DNA from: Lysinibacillus sphaericus
GTDB lineage: Bacteria > Bacillota > Bacilli > Bacillales_A > Planococcaceae
NCBI RefSeq assembly: GCF_001629735.1
Contig: NZ_CP015224.1
Location: 62,001 to 126,000 of the forward strand
Direction: 5' to 3'
DNA: 64,000 nt
Made by a program: the position numbers and the translations under genes. The notes under the pieces are model-generated. The model was not told the origin of the DNA and ran no database searches. It was given only the letters and a program-made list of their open reading frames with translations. This document shows, piece after piece, positions 15,286 to 42,722 of the stretch (its first letter is position 1; each line of letters begins with the position of its first letter).

Positions 15286-15314
15286 TGCTTATACACTGAA
15301 AATAGCAAGAAGCG

Positions 15315-15405
15315 CCACTTTCCTCCGCTAGTATGAACTAGATCAGGTTCGAAGGGTCCGTATATAACCATATACGTCTCAGCCTTTAGAAGACTCCCCT
15401 AGTGG
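15315..15405 (-). ncRNA. TPP riboswitch (THI element) upstream of thiW
   Basis: Read on the minus strand, P1 is formed by CCACT (15405-15401) and AGTGG (15319-15315). Between them lie the conserved blocks GGCTGAGA, a P3 stem GTATAT/ATATAC, ACCCTTCGAACCTGATCTAG and the CTAGCGGAGGAAA end. These are the core thi-box segments that bind thiamin pyrophosphate. A terminator follows, so regulation is by premature transcription termination. Confidence 0.95.
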
Positions 15406-15428
15406 TAAGTATTTTTCTATTTTTTAGA

Positions 15429-35303: not shown

Positions 35304-36539
35304 TTAAACATCTTTATGCTCAGCAGTAGGTCTTCCAGCATGTAATAAGACTTTACTGCCCAGTAGGAAAAATCCTTGGATAAATAAGAGGATTCCTGTA
35401 CCAATAAGTAGCCACTCGATAGCAATAATGTCTGCAATCGGACCGAAAATAAGCATACCTAAAGGCATCATAGAGGTAGATATCATACTAAGAATGCCAA
35501 ATACTCTTCCCATATAATCACTATTCACTTTTTCTTGTAATAACACCGTTGCGGGTGTATTAAAGATTGGCATAGCTATTCCAGTAACTGTCATGATTAT
35601 GAGATACAGCCAAAAAACAGGAATGACTCCGAGAGCCATTGTACAAAGACCAAATAATAAAGCAGATAATGTCATCGTATGCACTTTATTTTTAAAGCCA
35701 CCCCATGTTGCGATTGCGATACCACCAATTAACATCCCAATGGCAAAGGCCATCTCGATAGCAGTCAAGCGCCAGACATCATTACCAAAGCTACGAGTAA
35801 CTTGCAAAGGTGTTAAAAAGGCAGCAGGGGCAGCGAGCAGCATGAAAAAGGCAAAGAACAAGAATAAATGTTTCAAGAAAGCATGCTCTTTAATGTAGAT
35901 GAAGCCTTGTTTCATATCACTAAAATAACCTGTTGTTTGTGGCTGATTAGCTTTTGCATGTGCAGGAATATGCAGAAATAATAAGAAAATAGCAATAGCA
36001 ATAGCAGCTGTTGTCACATCAATAAAGAAAATAGACTCGATTGAAGCCATCGTTAATAATGCTCCACTTGCCATAGGTGCAAGAATCATGATAAAAGCTT
36101 GAATACTACTATTCGCTCCATTAACTTTCATTAAATGCTCTTCAGGTACAAATTGCGGTAAAATAGCGCCCACAGCTGGTGTTTGAATACCTGCACCAAC
36201 TGCACGTACCGCCGATATGACAAACAATAGCCAGAGTTCATCATAGCCGATTAAAAATAAAATGGCTAAAAAGAGTGTAGATAAGGCGATCATGCCATCT
36301 GCCAAGATAATAAGCCATTTTCGGTTATAACGATCTGCCCAGACACCAGCAATAGGTGCTAGGAAGAAGGTTGGTAAAAAGCCACAAATAATCGCAATGG
36401 TCATCATGCTGCCTGATTGCGTTGTAAGCGTGATATACCATGTAATGGCATATTGCACAAGAGCAGAGCCAAAAAGTGAAATCGTCTGACTACTTAAAAA
36501 AAGTATTGTATTACGTTTCCAATGTTCCAATTTCGTCAT
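35304..36539 (-). CDS. MefA-like MFS efflux transporter (DHA3), attenuator-controlled
   Basis: 411 residues, twelve helices, DHA3/macrolide-efflux type. HWKRNTILFLSSQTISLFGSALVQYAITWYIT at the start, GVWADRYNRKWLIILADG (motif A), QTPAVGAILPQFVPEEHLMKVNGANSSIQ and NTPATVLLQEKVNSDYMGRVFG all follow MefA-like proteins. ATG 36539 has AAAGGG immediately against it, which is too close. Either the start is TTG at codon 4 (36530, spacing 9), or translation depends on the upstream 47-codon frame whose TGA overlaps this ATG. Upstream lies a macrolide-type leader peptide and terminator, so the gene is probably induced by a ribosome-targeting antibiotic which it exports. The exact drug is inferred. Confidence 0.87.
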   Translation of the reverse strand: MTKLEHWKRNTILFLSSQTISLFGSALVQYAITWYITLTTQSGSMMTIAIICGFLPTFFLAPIAGVWADRYNRKWLIILADGMIALSTLFLAILFLIGYDELWLLFVISAVRAVGAGIQTPAVGAILPQFVPEEHLMKVNGANSSIQAFIMILAPMASGALLTMASIESIFFIDVTTAAIAIAIFLLFLHIPAHAKANQPQTTGYFSDMKQGFIYIKEHAFLKHLFLFFAFFMLLAAPAAFLTPLQVTRSFGNDVWRLTAIEMAFAIGMLIGGIAIATWGGFKNKVHTMTLSALLFGLCTMALGVIPVFWLYLIIMTVTGIAMPIFNTPATVLLQEKVNSDYMGRVFGILSMISTSMMPLGMLIFGPIADIIAIEWLLIGTGILLFIQGFFLLGSKVLLHAGRPTAEHKDV

Positions 36540-36679
36540 CCCTTTCTAACAGTAATGCCTGTGTGGAAAGTAAAAAGACAACAAAAAAGAGGGGAGTAGA
36601 AGTCCCCCTCTTTTCCAGTATTCCTAAAACAGACTAGACCTAATTCCATTTCCTTGCACAGCAGGCAAAGAGTACACAT
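36536..36679 (-). CDS. Possible 47-residue Cys-rich coupling ORF in the attenuator leader
   Basis: Open frame starting at ATG 36679, two bases after the leader-peptide stop, and ending in a TGA that overlaps the ATG of the MFS gene (ATGA). It reads MCTLCLLCKEMELGLV and continues through the terminator hairpin with six Cys in total. It has no ribosome binding site, so translation would need reinitiation after the leader peptide. It could be a coupling ORF that melts the terminator and hands ribosomes to the MFS gene, or just chance openness of a structured leader. Confidence 0.35.
   Translation of the reverse strand: MCTLCLLCKEMELGLVCFRNTGKEGDFYSPLFCCLFTFHTGITVRKG
36583..36614 (-). terminator. 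Attenuator terminator in the MFS leader
   Basis: Minus strand AAAAGAGGGG / CCCCTCTTTT with loop GACTTCTACT, followed by TTGTTG. It stands between the leader peptide and the efflux gene, so most transcripts should stop here unless it is prevented from forming. Confidence 0.9.
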
Positions 36680-36733
36680 ATTTAATTAGTAATGTGAAAT
36701 CGTAGTCTAATTGAAGCTGTCATTTGGAATACC
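36617..36733 (-). promoter_or_regulatory. Nested leader stems of the antibiotic-sensing attenuator
   Basis: Three complementary pairs are arranged in nested order on the minus strand: GGTATTCC (36733-36726) with GGAATACT (36624-36617); AGACTA (36708-36703) with TAGTCT (36636-36631); CTAATT (36689-36684) with AATTAG (36645-36640). The first arm touches the leader Shine-Dalgarno and the second covers the Arg-Leu-Arg codons. An alternative pairing of CTCTTTGCC (36672-36664) with GGAAAAGAG (36616-36608) would block the terminator's left arm. No folding was computed. Confidence 0.65.
36682..36723 (-). CDS. Macrolide-type regulatory leader peptide MTASIRLRFHITN
   Basis: Thirteen codons with an excellent ribosome site, GGAGGG (36737-36732), 8 bases before ATG 36723. 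Arg-Leu-Arg occupies codons 6-8, exactly where the erm(D)/erm(K) leader (MTHSMRLRF...) has its macrolide-dependent arrest site, and the MTAS start is like that of the msr(A) leader. With a macrolide in the exit tunnel, ribosomes are known to stall at such +X+ motifs. Here stalling would rearrange the leader RNA and let transcription reach the MefA-like gene. The peptide is seen directly in sequence; drug response is inferred from the erm/msr systems. Confidence 0.85.
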   Translation of the reverse strand: MTASIRLRFHITN

Positions 36734-36756
36734 CTCCGTTCATATAAGTTGTGTTG

Positions 36757-36786
36757 ATTGTAGCATACAGTTTATGACTGCGTAAA
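36757..36786 (-). promoter_or_regulatory. Promoter of the attenuator-controlled efflux gene
   Basis: Minus strand TTTACG (36786-36781), 18-bp spacer, extended -10 TGCTACAAT with TACAAT at 36762-36757. Transcription would start near 36750, a dozen bases before the leader ribosome site. Confidence 0.65.
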
Positions 36787-38699: not shown

Positions 38700-41600
38700 T
38701 TAATTTTCTTCGATATCTTTACGATTTTTCTTTAACATTTTTGAAAGCATTTCATACACAATTGGTACAACCACTAATGTTAATAGAGTGGATGATAATA
38801 AACCACCAATTACAGTAATGGCTAAGTCTTTTGATATTAATCCACTACCACCAGAACCAAGTGCCATAGGAACCATCGCACCGATTGTTGCAATAGCTGT
38901 CATCAATATTGGGCGTAAACGTGTAGCACCAGCTTCTAGAATGGCTTCACGCATGACTAAACCAGCATGTTCCATATGAATAATACGGTCAACTAATACG
39001 ATGGCGTTCGTCACAACGATACCGATTAACATCAGTAGACCCATCATAACAGAAACAGAAATCGTTTGACCTGTTACGAATAAACCAACAAATGCACCGA
39101 TTACGGCGAATGGAAGCGAGAAGAGAATAGCGAATGGAGCTAAACCTTCACCGAACGTAACAACTAAAATGAAGTATACAATCGCTATTGCCGCTAGCAT
39201 AGCAACACCCAGCTTCGTGAATGTTTCTTGCATATCTGCAGCAACTCCAGCAACACCTGTTGTTACACCCTTTGGTAAATCTAATTTGTCAATTTTCTTA
39301 TCGGCAGCAGAAGTTGCTTTTGAAATATCATCGCCGATAATCGTACCGGATACTGTTGCGAAGTATTCACCTTTTGAACGAGATAGTGAGTTAAGAGTCG
39401 TGCCTTCTTCAACATCTACTAGCTCACCAATAGTCATCGTTGTGCCTAATGCTGTTTTAACTTCAGTTGCTAAAACATCCTCAAGTGAAGTCGCAGCTGC
39501 TTTGGCATCACGTTGAACAATGACATCAATATCTTTTCCATCATTTTTCACGGTTGTTAAAACTTCTTGTGATGTATTTGCATTTAAAGCCATCACGATT
39601 TGAGCAGTTGTTAAACCATATTGAAGGACATTCTTCTGTTCTACTTTAAGTACATTTTCAACATATGGATCTTCGTTATCTGATTTAATATCTTCTAGGC
39701 CATCCACATCTTTTAAAGCACCTTCTACTTGATTTACAGCGTCTCGTAGCTTATCTAAATCATCACTATATAGTGTGTAGCTTACTTCGTTTGAAGACAT
39801 AGACATTGAAGAGAAGTTCTGAGATTTCCATTCTCCTGATTGACCTATATTAAATACATAGTCTTCTACTTCTTCACGAGCTTTAGGGAAGTCTTTCATA
39901 TCTGGATCAAAGATTAGGTACATTAAAGCTCCGCCAGCGCCTCCGCCCATCATCATTGCTGATGGATCGACATTGTTCGCATCTGTAATGGAAACTTGTA
40001 AAATATCAACGTCTTTGCGCTTCATTAATTCTTTTTCTACTTTTTCAACATTTGCTGCAGTTTCATCTGCAAGCTCTCCAGTTGAAGGAGTATATGTGAG
40101 GTACATAACTTTTTCTTCCTGTGATCCCATAAAGCTAAACCCAATTAAAGGAGTTAACGCTAGTGAACCTACAAGTAAGAAAATCGCAATTAGAGACGTA
40201 ATAATTTTATGATTTAACGCTTTTTCTAAAACACCTTTGTACCATGTTGCTAGTTTACCAACTTCTTTATGCTGGCTTTCTTTTTTCTCACCGTATAGTT
40301 TTTTACGGAATAGGAAATGGGATAATGCAGGTACAATGGTAATGGCTACTAATAATGATGCACCTAATGCAAACGTCATTGTTAGTGCGAATGGCATGAA
40401 TAGTTCGCCAACCATACCACCTACAAAAATAAGTGGAGCAAATACAGCCACTGTAACTAATGTTGACGAAAGAATCGGTTTAAACATTTCAATGGTTGCT
40501 TCACGAATTAAAGCTCGACCTGTTAATTTTTCTTGTTTTAAATGGATACGTCGATAAATGTTTTCAACAACTACAATCGAGTCATCGATAACACGTCCAA
40601 TGGCAACGGTAATCGCCCCAAGGGTCATAATGTTTAATGTAATATCCATCCAGTTTAGTAGTAGTAATGCCATGAAAACTGAAACTGGGATCGAAACAAT
40701 CGAAATAATGGTTGATTTGAAATCACGTAAGAATAACAAGATGATTAATACAGCAATTGCACCACCAAATACGGCCTTTTCAATCATGGTAAAGACAGAA
40801 TCTTCAATTGGGGCACCTTGGTCAAGAGAGATATCTACGTTTAGGCCATCTAAACGTTTTTCTTCATCTTTCATAAGGTCTTTAACGGCATTGACAACAG
40901 TTACAGTGTTAGCATCTTGACCCTTAACGATTTGAATGGCTATAGCATCTTGACCGTTTGTACGGGACACAGATTGTACTTTACCTTCTACTTCAATCTT
41001 TGCAATATCACCCAGACGAACGAATGGTGAAGGATTTGTTGCTGAAGGTGTGACTGGAATTAATAAATCTTTTAGTTCATCTACGGACTTTACTTTACCG
41101 TCTACAGAAACTGCTTGTTCTCCAACAGTAAATTGATATAAACCAAGTGATAGTGACATATCGCTTGCTTGAATCATTTGCTTGACTGTTTCCTCTGTTA
41201 ACCCTAATGCAGCCATTTTTTCTTCATCATATTTAAAGGATACTTGTTCAATATGCTGACCTGTAATGGTTGCAGAGGCAACACCATCAATTTTTTCAAT
41301 CTTAGGAAGTAAAACATCTTCTACTGTAGAAGTAAGATCGACAATATCTTCCTCAGAACTACTAACGGATAAAGCTACTACTGGCATCATGTTCATACTG
41401 ATAGCCATAATAGTTGGCTCTTGAGCACCTTCAGGCAATTTTAGATTATCTAAAGCTGCTTCTAACTGACGCTTTTTTTCATCCATATCAATGCCATAGT
41501 CGTATTCAACCTGCACTTGTGCTACGTTGGAAGAGGATGTTGAGTAAACTGCCTTCACATCTTCTAAGCTTTCTATGGATTTTTCGAATGGGATGGAAAG

Positions 41601-41795
41601 CTCATTCATGACTTGTTCAGGCGTTGCACCTGGATATACGCCCATGACAATTAAGTATGGGATCGAGATATCAGGTATAGATTCCATTTTCATTCTTGTG
41701 CCGGAATAAATACCAGAGACAGTGATGATAATTGTTAATAACCACACTGCCAATTTGTTTTTCAATACGAAATTAACTAAACCTTTCACCTTCAC
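38700..41795 (-). CDS. swrC: RND efflux transporter SwrC/AcrB family
   Basis: 1031 residues from GTG 41795, with AAAGGG about 5 bases upstream. Twelve membrane helices arranged as 1+5 twice with two large extracytoplasmic loops. RND motifs: PGATPEQVMNELSIPFEKSIESLEDVKAVYSTSS, AIAIQIVKGQDANTV, GRVIDDSIVVVENIYRR (proton-relay helix 4 aspartates), and GIVVTNAIVLVDRI in the second half. This is the Gram-positive HAE1 branch typified by B. subtilis SwrC (YerP), which gives surfactin self-resistance and swarming. Gly/Met-rich insert SAMMMGGGAGGALMY is seen. The divergent TetR gene mirrors yerO-yerP. The substrate here is inferred. Confidence 0.9.
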   Translation of the reverse strand: MKVKGLVNFVLKNKLAVWLLTIIITVSGIYSGTRMKMESIPDISIPYLIVMGVYPGATPEQVMNELSIPFEKSIESLEDVKAVYSTSSSNVAQVQVEYDYGIDMDEKKRQLEAALDNLKLPEGAQEPTIMAISMNMMPVVALSVSSSEEDIVDLTSTVEDVLLPKIEKIDGVASATITGQHIEQVSFKYDEEKMAALGLTEETVKQMIQASDMSLSLGLYQFTVGEQAVSVDGKVKSVDELKDLLIPVTPSATNPSPFVRLGDIAKIEVEGKVQSVSRTNGQDAIAIQIVKGQDANTVTVVNAVKDLMKDEEKRLDGLNVDISLDQGAPIEDSVFTMIEKAVFGGAIAVLIILLFLRDFKSTIISIVSIPVSVFMALLLLNWMDITLNIMTLGAITVAIGRVIDDSIVVVENIYRRIHLKQEKLTGRALIREATIEMFKPILSSTLVTVAVFAPLIFVGGMVGELFMPFALTMTFALGASLLVAITIVPALSHFLFRKKLYGEKKESQHKEVGKLATWYKGVLEKALNHKIITSLIAIFLLVGSLALTPLIGFSFMGSQEEKVMYLTYTPSTGELADETAANVEKVEKELMKRKDVDILQVSITDANNVDPSAMMMGGGAGGALMYLIFDPDMKDFPKAREEVEDYVFNIGQSGEWKSQNFSSMSMSSNEVSYTLYSDDLDKLRDAVNQVEGALKDVDGLEDIKSDNEDPYVENVLKVEQKNVLQYGLTTAQIVMALNANTSQEVLTTVKNDGKDIDVIVQRDAKAAATSLEDVLATEVKTALGTTMTIGELVDVEEGTTLNSLSRSKGEYFATVSGTIIGDDISKATSAADKKIDKLDLPKGVTTGVAGVAADMQETFTKLGVAMLAAIAIVYFILVVTFGEGLAPFAILFSLPFAVIGAFVGLFVTGQTISVSVMMGLLMLIGIVVTNAIVLVDRIIHMEHAGLVMREAILEAGATRLRPILMTAIATIGAMVPMALGSGGSGLISKDLAITVIGGLLSSTLLTLVVVPIVYEMLSKMLKKNRKDIEEN

Positions 41796-41888: not shown

Positions 41889-42722
41889 ATGTTAAAAAAG
41901 CAATTAATTATGGAGAAAGCATTAGAGCTGTTTTCTGAACAGGGTTTTGAAGCTACATCAGTACAGCAAATAACAGAACGTTGTGGGATTTCTAAGGGTG
42001 CGTTTTACTTATCCTTCAAAACAAAAGACGAGCTTGTTATCTCTATGGTTGACTACTACTTACAACAATTTATTACAGATGTTGACCGAGTAGTCAGAGG
42101 GACGTATAACAAAGAAACGATTTTGGTTGAATTTTATAAAAGTATCTTTCAGGCATTCAAAAATCACTCTGCATCTGCTAGAGTATTTTTTAATGAGAAG
42201 GTCTTTCTAACAAAAAAAGAGCTATTTCATAAAATAACAGCGTATGAAGCAGAGATGTCTAAATCTATCATTTATATGCTGGAGCAACTTTATCAGGATA
42301 AGCTACAAGAAACAAAATACGATGTCATGTATTGTATTAAAGGTTTTATGAAGAGCTATGCGGAACTTTTTATCTTTTCAGATATGCCTCTCGATTTAGA
42401 ACAACTTGCGAAATCTTTAGCAGAAAAAACAGATATTATTGCACGACATACAACGATACCTTTTATTACGAAGGAGCTTGTTACTTTTATAGCGAAGCCT
42501 TGCGAACAGGATATTTCAAAGGAAATGTTACTGCAGTTAATTGAACAAAATATTGATAATACTGAGGATTCTATTGAAAAAGAATCATTGGAACTGCTAA
42601 AACTCGAAATAGAAAAGCCAACATACAGTAAAGCCATCGTAAAGGGGCTAATAGAAAATCTACGACTTAGCCCTGCGTATCATTGGATTGCTTATGTATG
42701 TGCAAAATACTTAAATATTTAA
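41889..42722 (+). CDS. TetR-family repressor, likely regulator of swrC
   Basis: 277 residues, longer than most TetR proteins. The N-terminal HTH (about 5-50) reads LIMEKALELFSEQGFEATSVQQITERCGISKGAFYLSFKTKDELV. The large C-terminal ligand domain has no recognisable subfamily motif. Divergent from the RND pump with 93 bases between, like yerO beside swrC (yerP) in B. subtilis. It probably represses the pump and perhaps itself through the palindrome at 41837-41854. Confidence 0.85.
   Translation: MLKKQLIMEKALELFSEQGFEATSVQQITERCGISKGAFYLSFKTKDELVISMVDYYLQQFITDVDRVVRGTYNKETILVEFYKSIFQAFKNHSASARVFFNEKVFLTKKELFHKITAYEAEMSKSIIYMLEQLYQDKLQETKYDVMYCIKGFMKSYAELFIFSDMPLDLEQLAKSLAEKTDIIARHTTIPFITKELVTFIAKPCEQDISKEMLLQLIEQNIDNTEDSIEKESLELLKLEIEKPTYSKAIVKGLIENLRLSPAYHWIAYVCAKYLNI

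Follow-up and report, generated by a model that had tools for sequence, protein, structure and literature searches.

A putative ribosome-arrest attenuator upstream of a chromosomal Mef-like efflux gene in Lysinibacillus sphaericus

Leader-dependent transcription attenuation has been demonstrated experimentally for mef(E), with a leader peptide of sequence MTASMRLR, by Chancey et al. 2015 (PMC4335068), who noted that this peptide resembles the leader peptides of erm(K) and msr(A). For the ErmD leader peptide (ErmDL), the ribosome is reported to arrest when Leu7 occupies the P site and Arg8 the A site, erythromycin arrest leaning on Ser4/Met5 and arrest by the ketolide telithromycin on Arg6/Arg8 (PMC8298421). 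A comparable arrangement occurs in a 64,000 nucleotide (nt) stretch of the 4.69 Mb genome of Lysinibacillus sphaericus (NZ_CP015224.1, nt 62,001–126,000; hereafter the window, in which coordinates are given unless stated otherwise), where a 13-codon leader open reading frame (ORF) precedes a gene for a Mef-like transporter of the major facilitator superfamily (MFS). Judged from its sequence, the locus is likely to be a ribosome-arrest transcription attenuator controlling this chromosomal pump, with a macrolide or related exit-tunnel drug as the inducer. An earlier interpretation of the same DNA (the original prediction) had considered attenuation of a Mef pump by an Arg-Leu-Arg leader to lack a described precedent, a claim that falls with the published mef(E) case.

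Organisation and conservation of the locus

The element lies on the minus strand in the order promoter, Shine-Dalgarno sequence (SD), leader ORF, long hairpin, terminator and MFS gene. All the parts that the original prediction had named (promoter, GGAGGG, 13-codon leader, nested stems, terminator and MFS gene) were located on this strand, as follows.

nt 36757–36786, minus strand: promoter TTTACG, 18-nt spacer and extended −10 TG.TACAAT (consensus score 9/12)
nt 36732–36737, minus strand: SD GGAGGG of the leader ORF (sequence; GGAGG in relatives)
nt 36726–36732, minus strand: 5′ arm of stem P1, GUAUUCC, over the leader ribosome site (alignment; arm-swap test)
ATG at nt 36723, stop at nt 36682, minus strand: leader ORF MTASIRLRFHITN, 13 codons and stop (sequence, relatives, strict leader test)
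nt 36717–36721, minus strand: long-hairpin segment GACAG, partner 36628–36632 (structure alignment)
nt 36705–36708, minus strand: 5′ arm of stem P2, AGAC, on the Arg6-Leu7 codons, partner GUCU 36636–36639 (structure alignment, covariation)
nt 36700–36708, minus strand: codons of Arg6-Leu7-Arg8, where arrest is predicted with P-site Leu7 and A-site Arg8 (conserved motif; analogy to ErmDL)
nt 36652–36670, minus strand: P4 hairpin CUUUGC/GCAAGG in the hairpin crown (fold; covariation, helix 4, 95.3% of cells paired)
nt 36624–36641, minus strand: candidate antiterminator 5′ half AGGUCUAGUCUGUUUUAG (nascent stalled folds; paired to the terminator arm for 12 of the 13 genus sequences)
nt 36618–36624, minus strand: 3′ arm of P1, GGAAUAC (alignment; arm-swap test)
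nt 36600–36618, minus strand: candidate antiterminator 3′ half, overlapping the terminator 5′ arm (nascent stalled folds)
about nt 36582–36617, minus strand: intrinsic terminator UGGAAAAGAGGGGG...CCCCUCUUUUUUG (terminator scan; kept in genus relatives)
nt 36542–36570, minus strand: small hairpin CUUUC/GAAAG plus ACAG/CUGU over the SD region of the MFS gene (sequence; outer pairs by eye)
nt 35304–36539, minus strand: Mef-like MFS transporter, 411 amino acids (ORF; Pfam and NCBIfam profiles)

The original prediction had expected the Arg-Leu-Arg codons and the stems to be conserved in relatives, and both are. The MFS protein was found at E ≤ 1e-60 in 18 of 32 genomes of the genus, and a leader of the form MTAS[IM]RLRFH stands near the gene in 13 of these 18 orthologs (window included); the stems covary, as set out below. 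The extended −10 (TATGCTACAAT) is unchanged in all 13 leader-bearing genus relatives and TTTACG is kept in 11 of them, while the terminator scan returned three overlapping matches on the minus strand and one on the plus strand, with 0.1 expected. Across the genus set the terminator 5′ arm begins 107–110 nt past the leader ATG. Just past the terminator (nt 36577–36583) is the sequence UGUUGUC, shared by many members of the family and complementary to GACAGC at the start of the leader. Three of five genus orthologs (77–83% identity) had been taken as leaderless, a status overturned when the scan was extended from 400 nt, which was too short, to 900 nt. These three further orthologs (proteins 80–82% identical) have a homologous element about 390–580 nt upstream with an RFR peptide, MPGRFRFHNLNR or M(M)PSRFRFRNLNR, and the remaining two (L020, L024) gave no match to the core model described below. 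A second T-tailed hairpin (CACAGG...CCUGUG, U7) was also seen in the RFR-leader loci L021, L022 and L023, about 50–80 nt before the MFS match.

At family level, the MFS protein was found at E ≤ 1e-100 in 70 of 261 genomes. A strict leader test, which called for an SD, a peptide of 6–22 residues with [RK][LFVIM][RK] near its start and a terminator within 260 nt, was passed by 35 of these 70 orthologs (34 without the doubtful L187) and by none of 350 shuffled upstream regions or 70 reverse complements. Eight other loci with a short +X+ ORF failed it, mostly because they lack a simple terminator (L144, L145, L147, L148, L154, L170, L171 and L179). Leader variants in the family include MTASMRLRIQ.LNR, MQSVRLRFQNSNR, MASVRLRFQASNC and MTASMKLRFRFPFN. 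The motif codons are exchanged synonymously (AGA/CGA/CGT, CTA/CTT/TTG) while Arg-X-Arg persists, and the motif shifts among codons 4–6, 5–7 and 6–8, with variation in the flanking residues as well. The shifting position and the differing Arg and Leu codons argue for selection on the leader peptide.

The pump had been described in the original prediction as MefA-type. Its place on a Mef-like branch stands, and the label itself proved loose, since the scores for Mef(B) and Mef(A) (226 and 198 bits) are far below the curated NCBIfam cut-offs of 800 and 675 bits; Mef(C) reached 161 of 870 bits, and TIGR00900 (249 bits) was likewise below its cut-off. The protein is 31% identical to the mef-element MFS protein of a Streptococcus pneumoniae contig (L052). 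No msr(D)-type ABC-F gene lies beside it, there being no ORF of at least 60 residues on the minus strand before the convergent mprF gene. In a tree of the MFS proteins the leader types track clades, and most leaderless orthologs also group in clades. The MFS gene of one leader-bearing relative (L014) has a single in-frame stop. A plasmid search returned four records, the best with 66.8% identity and all on replicons of 0.8–1.4 Mb that are predicted to be non-mobilizable. Near the MFS locus are genes for an efflux permease of the resistance-nodulation-division type (Pfam ACR_tran; nt 38700–41795, minus strand) and for a divergent regulator-like protein, its type judged from sequence alone (nt 41889–42722, plus strand). 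The sole Rfam match at gathering score in the window is a thiamine pyrophosphate riboswitch (nt 15303–15410, minus strand).

Leader RNA structure and the proposed switch

The 184-nt leader RNA folds with −51.9 kcal/mol against −37.2 kcal/mol for shuffled sequences (z = −4.3), a value reached by none of 200 shuffles. Most aligned sequences share a frame consisting of an SD arm (P1), P2 on the Arg codons, P3 over the end of the leader, P4, the 3′ arms and the terminator; L145 and L179 deviate from it. A single consensus fold of the mixed MAFFT alignment was dropped, as only P4 emerged from it. The reason is that P1 is misaligned between groups, and an arm-swap test and a core alignment were therefore used instead. 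Two alignments were made: A1 with 61 of 68 listed sequences (seven near-duplicates omitted), and the core alignment A2 with 44 of 50 (L157 and L098 were dropped for a wrong 3′ cut, and four were redundant). In A2, 87.4% of the cells of the P2–P4 structure are paired, compared with 26–45% for slid partners, there are 43 two-sided changes against 18.2 in shuffles, and the covariation score was matched by none of 500 shuffles. Helix 2 is the weak part, with 75.6% of cells paired and two pairs failing in about half of the sequences. In the arm-swap test (68 sequences), P1 arms paired with their own group gave −12.6 kcal/mol and with another group −5.1 kcal/mol, 3.3% being as good; the groups were chosen after the fact and differ in P1 sequence. 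Discrimination was clear in three groups and weak in the MQSVRLR type (−9.5 kcal/mol own, −8.4 kcal/mol next group).

A covariance model of the core (R1) scored the window copy at 54.7 bits (E = 1.0e-8 in its genome), this copy being itself one of the 44 model sequences. It matched 41 of the 70 family orthologs, once each and always on the strand of the gene; 23 of the 70 were model sequences, and 18 of the 47 outside the model were matched. The core can be aligned across the 61 and the 44 sequences, erm-linked loci among them. The kinship with erm(D)/erm(K) leaders that the original prediction had seen in the Arg-Leu-Arg peptide is accordingly one of RNA homology, given the shared core and its covariation. 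By sequence and comparison, then, the element is a conserved set of parts with an Arg-X-Arg peptide, stems and a core common to erm-type leaders.

From these parts the following switch can be proposed. Without drug, the leader peptide would be completed and released, the leader RNA would fold into the long hairpin, which encloses both the leader ribosome site and nt 36624–36641, and the terminator (nt 36617–36582) would halt transcription ahead of the pump gene. With a macrolide or related exit-tunnel drug bound, the ribosome would arrest at Arg6-Leu7-Arg8 and occupy the hairpin's 5′ arms. This would leave the 3′ side AGGUCUAGUCUGUUUUAG free to capture the 5′ arm of the terminator (CUGGAAAAGAGGGGGACUU) as it emerges and while the 3′ arm has yet to be transcribed, and the RNA polymerase would read through into the pump gene. 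We infer drug binding, arrest, read-through and macrolide export by the pump.

The stalled ribosome was simulated by masking the leader up to 34 nt beyond the first base of its start codon (Leu7 in the P site). In nascent RNA ending after the terminator 5′ arm, this arm is paired upstream with a probability of 0.00–0.10 when the leader is free and 0.59–0.76 when it is stalled, in all 13 genus sequences. Its partner in the stalled fold is GUCU..UUUUAG (nt 36624–36641) in 12 of the 13 (0.64–0.80), a segment that reads CACTTTGCC in 11 of them. The antiterminator of the original prediction was a different segment, CTCTTTGCC (CUCUUUGCC), and was rejected: when the nascent RNA is stalled, its probability of pairing to the terminator arm came to 0.000 in the window, to at most 0.022 in 12 of the 13 genus sequences and to 0.37 solely in L019, nt 36624–36641 pairing instead. 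Among the control leaders, folded with the full terminator present, the mef(E)-type L052 switches when blocked (terminator arms paired 0.86 free, 0.00 blocked) and the erm-type L036 barely changes (0.99 and 0.96).

Several results weigh against the proposed attenuator. Once the full terminator is present, it stays in the optimum fold of all 13 genus sequences even with the leader blocked, so antitermination would have to be kinetic; on these folding models, an antiterminator at nt 36624–36641 that acts kinetically, in nascent RNA only, is plausible but unproven. Shuffled spacers paired as well as the stalled RNA in 1–16% of cases (median 6%), which gives modest support, and in a wider set (L179 and L182 left out) 36 of 40 rows shifted as expected, with weak support from shuffles; the terminator arms, set automatically, were of excessive length in the window clade and incorrect in some rows. 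As many pairs with two-sided change were seen in 31 of 500 shuffles and as many further pair types in 67 of 500, and the stems are near-invariant within the 13 genus sequences and so little informative there. To these are added the 29 of 70 family orthologs without a core-model match, the lack of a simple terminator at several leaders, and the sub-cut-off Mef scores of the pump. On the other side, similar leaders stand before known types of macrolide-resistance gene.

The persistence of the terminator in the blocked fold would suit control that is mainly or also translational, with the hairpin at nt 36542–36570 hiding the pump ribosome site and the terminator serving as a partial brake. This hairpin is kept in nine aligned and four further genus sequences and is a possible second, translational brake, and dual transcription and translation attenuation has been published for yxjB and cplR; yet in three divergent relatives its approximate position is taken by a T-tailed hairpin, and we regard this explanation as rather unlikely. 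We rate as similarly low the chance that the attenuator works as described with a natural inducer other than a 14-membered macrolide, such as a 16-membered macrolide, a natural ketolide or another exit-tunnel ligand. Residues ahead of the motif vary among family leaders and are reported to set specificity in ErmDL (Ser4/Met5 for erythromycin, Arg6/Arg8 for telithromycin; PMC8298421), and the RYR leader of Bacillus subtilis yxjB is described as responsive to tylosin and not to erythromycin (PMC6851288); against this, the window leader keeps Thr2, Ala3, Ser4 and RLR, and from MTASMRLR of mef(E) it differs only in residue 5 and the tail. Relief of termination through ribosome–polymerase timing or occlusion, and not through nt 36624–36641, appears less probable again: the antiterminator is weak relative to the complete terminator and yxjB is reported to need NusG-dependent pausing (PMC6851288), but a ribosome stalled at codon 7 would not reach as far as the terminator 5′ arm, and the free 3′ strand pairs with this arm in nearly all of the genus sequences. 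That a chance short ORF stands ahead of an ordinary terminator is hardly credible; the promoter match taken alone is at chance level (one found, 1.1 expected in shuffles), whereas the leader test separates half of the orthologs from every shuffled or reversed control, and the stems covary. The attenuator of the pump gene probably senses macrolides.

Spread of the RNA element

A pattern scan of genome contigs gave at least 118 loci. Among the loci listed, 103 have an ORF downstream of a short leader; this ORF is an MFS gene in 66 (47 of them with the 8-residue leader MTASMRLR), and belongs to an ABC-F cluster in 15 and an Erm cluster in six; two are Mph-like and 14 are singletons. At E ≤ 0.001, R1 gave 87 matches in 80 of 398 Bacilli genomes, representing 44 of 145 genera; 81 of these were inspected, the other six being window-type MFS loci seen before, and a short +X+ ORF is present at 67 of the 81. 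The targets of the 87 matches are MFS genes (seven window-type, three other Mef-like and two LmrB-like, the last below cut-off), Msr-like ABC-F genes (21, and one doubtful with 30% identity), Mph (16), Erm (13, one by a 40-residue match only), an HflX cluster (12; the six run against NCBIfam are all HflX), an RlmA-type methyltransferase cluster (five, all below cut-off), a short-chain dehydrogenase/reductase gene (one) and short unclassified ORFs (three), with none found in three. The ABC-F, Mph and Erm classes rest on BLAST matches to a few references, with NCBIfam applied to L026, L036, L041 and the L054 relatives L098 and L277. No HflX, RlmA-type or LmrB-like gene was knowingly included when R1 was trained, the gene after one training locus (L130) being out of range. 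On Msr-linked leaders R1 gave 28.5 bits (L026) and 20.2 bits (L092). No match was found in six genomes of other phyla at E ≤ 1, nor at E ≤ 0.001 in 150 genomes from the order of one of them, a control that has no positive and so is no evidence on its own. One Clostridia genome has a match (E = 7.2e-8; L278:1501-1593, minus strand) with a KFR leader, MGIFLYKFRFKTLCN, and a terminator, followed by HflX (NCBIfam).

The host genome carries a second core copy (L277; G000:C1:3584000-3584090, minus strand; 34.3 bits, E = 7.6e-4). Its leader MTYSMRRRCPDLSQ has RRR for RLR and precedes an Msr-family ABC-F gene (731 bits, cut-off 680). In this genome the Mef-like pump and the Msr-type protector would each appear to be served by a separate, unlinked copy of the switch; streptococci hold this pair in one operon. 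We lean towards a single ancestral, portable Arg-X-Arg RNA element that was placed before at least seven drug-defence functions of differing mechanism in Bacilli, namely Mef-like and LmrB-like efflux, Msr-type ABC-F protection, Mph inactivation, Erm and RlmA-type methylation, and HflX ribosome splitting. The window pump would then represent a diverged lineage that kept the Arg-X-Arg logic through drift in the position and start codon of the peptide, in the stem sequence and in the terminator. The RNA homology to erm-type leaders and the spread over defence mechanisms deserve more attention than the single locus. If the interpretation is correct, the pump is an intrinsic, drug-inducible chromosomal gene of environmental Bacilli, its switch belongs to one RNA family that could be used to find macrolide-responsive genes by sequence, and the natural variants (RLR, RFR, KLR and RRR; codons 4–6, 5–7 and 6–8) may help to ask which residues set the macrolide that is sensed.

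Relation to known attenuators

At gathering score, neither the window element nor any of the seven related loci scanned matched an Rfam family, and among openly licensed PMC papers, to which the search was confined, none was found on this leader in Lysinibacillus and none uniting these leaders as one RNA family. The uORFC-6-1 group of Bacillales, as described in PMC8632094, combines an Arg-Leu-Arg upstream ORF with a covarying RNA (51 representatives); it is said there to sit mainly before hflX, where the window has an MFS pump. Compared through this published description, uORFC-6-1 probably overlaps the core, so that the RNA family is partly in print. The yxjB (tlrB) leader of B. subtilis is similar in its Arg-X-Arg peptide, ribosome arrest and terminator, and is reported to differ in having RYR at the C-terminus of a 9-residue peptide, tylosin specificity, a hairpin that sequesters the SD and a need for RNA polymerase to pause (PMC6851288).

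The mef(E)/mel element of S. pneumoniae resembles the window element in its MTASMRLR leader, terminator and downstream MFS pump; residue 5 of the peptide is Ile for Met in the window, and the tails differ. The RNAs belong to separate families, as the mef-type leader of L052 matches Rfam RF02862 with 275 bits and the window has no match to it. Neither did R1 match the leader strand of five mef-type loci at E ≤ 1 (in L025 a 13.5-bit match lies on the opposite strand), which leaves the mef leader of streptococci outside the RNA family described here. RF02862, named 'Enterococcus sRNA 1300', covers L052:2480-2710 (minus strand) and may simply be the attenuated mef leader transcript. The erm(D)/erm(K) leaders (ErmDL/ErmKL, MTHSMRLRFPTLNQ) have an RNA core in common with the window, consisting of P2–P4, a GTCTGTC-like 3′ arm and the RLR peptide, and in both the long hairpin that buries the SD is followed by a terminator. 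The window element differs from them in controlling an MFS gene, in its shorter and altered peptide tail (FHITN), in the sequences of P1 and the terminator, and in having one terminator where two are described for erm(K) (PMC4335068).

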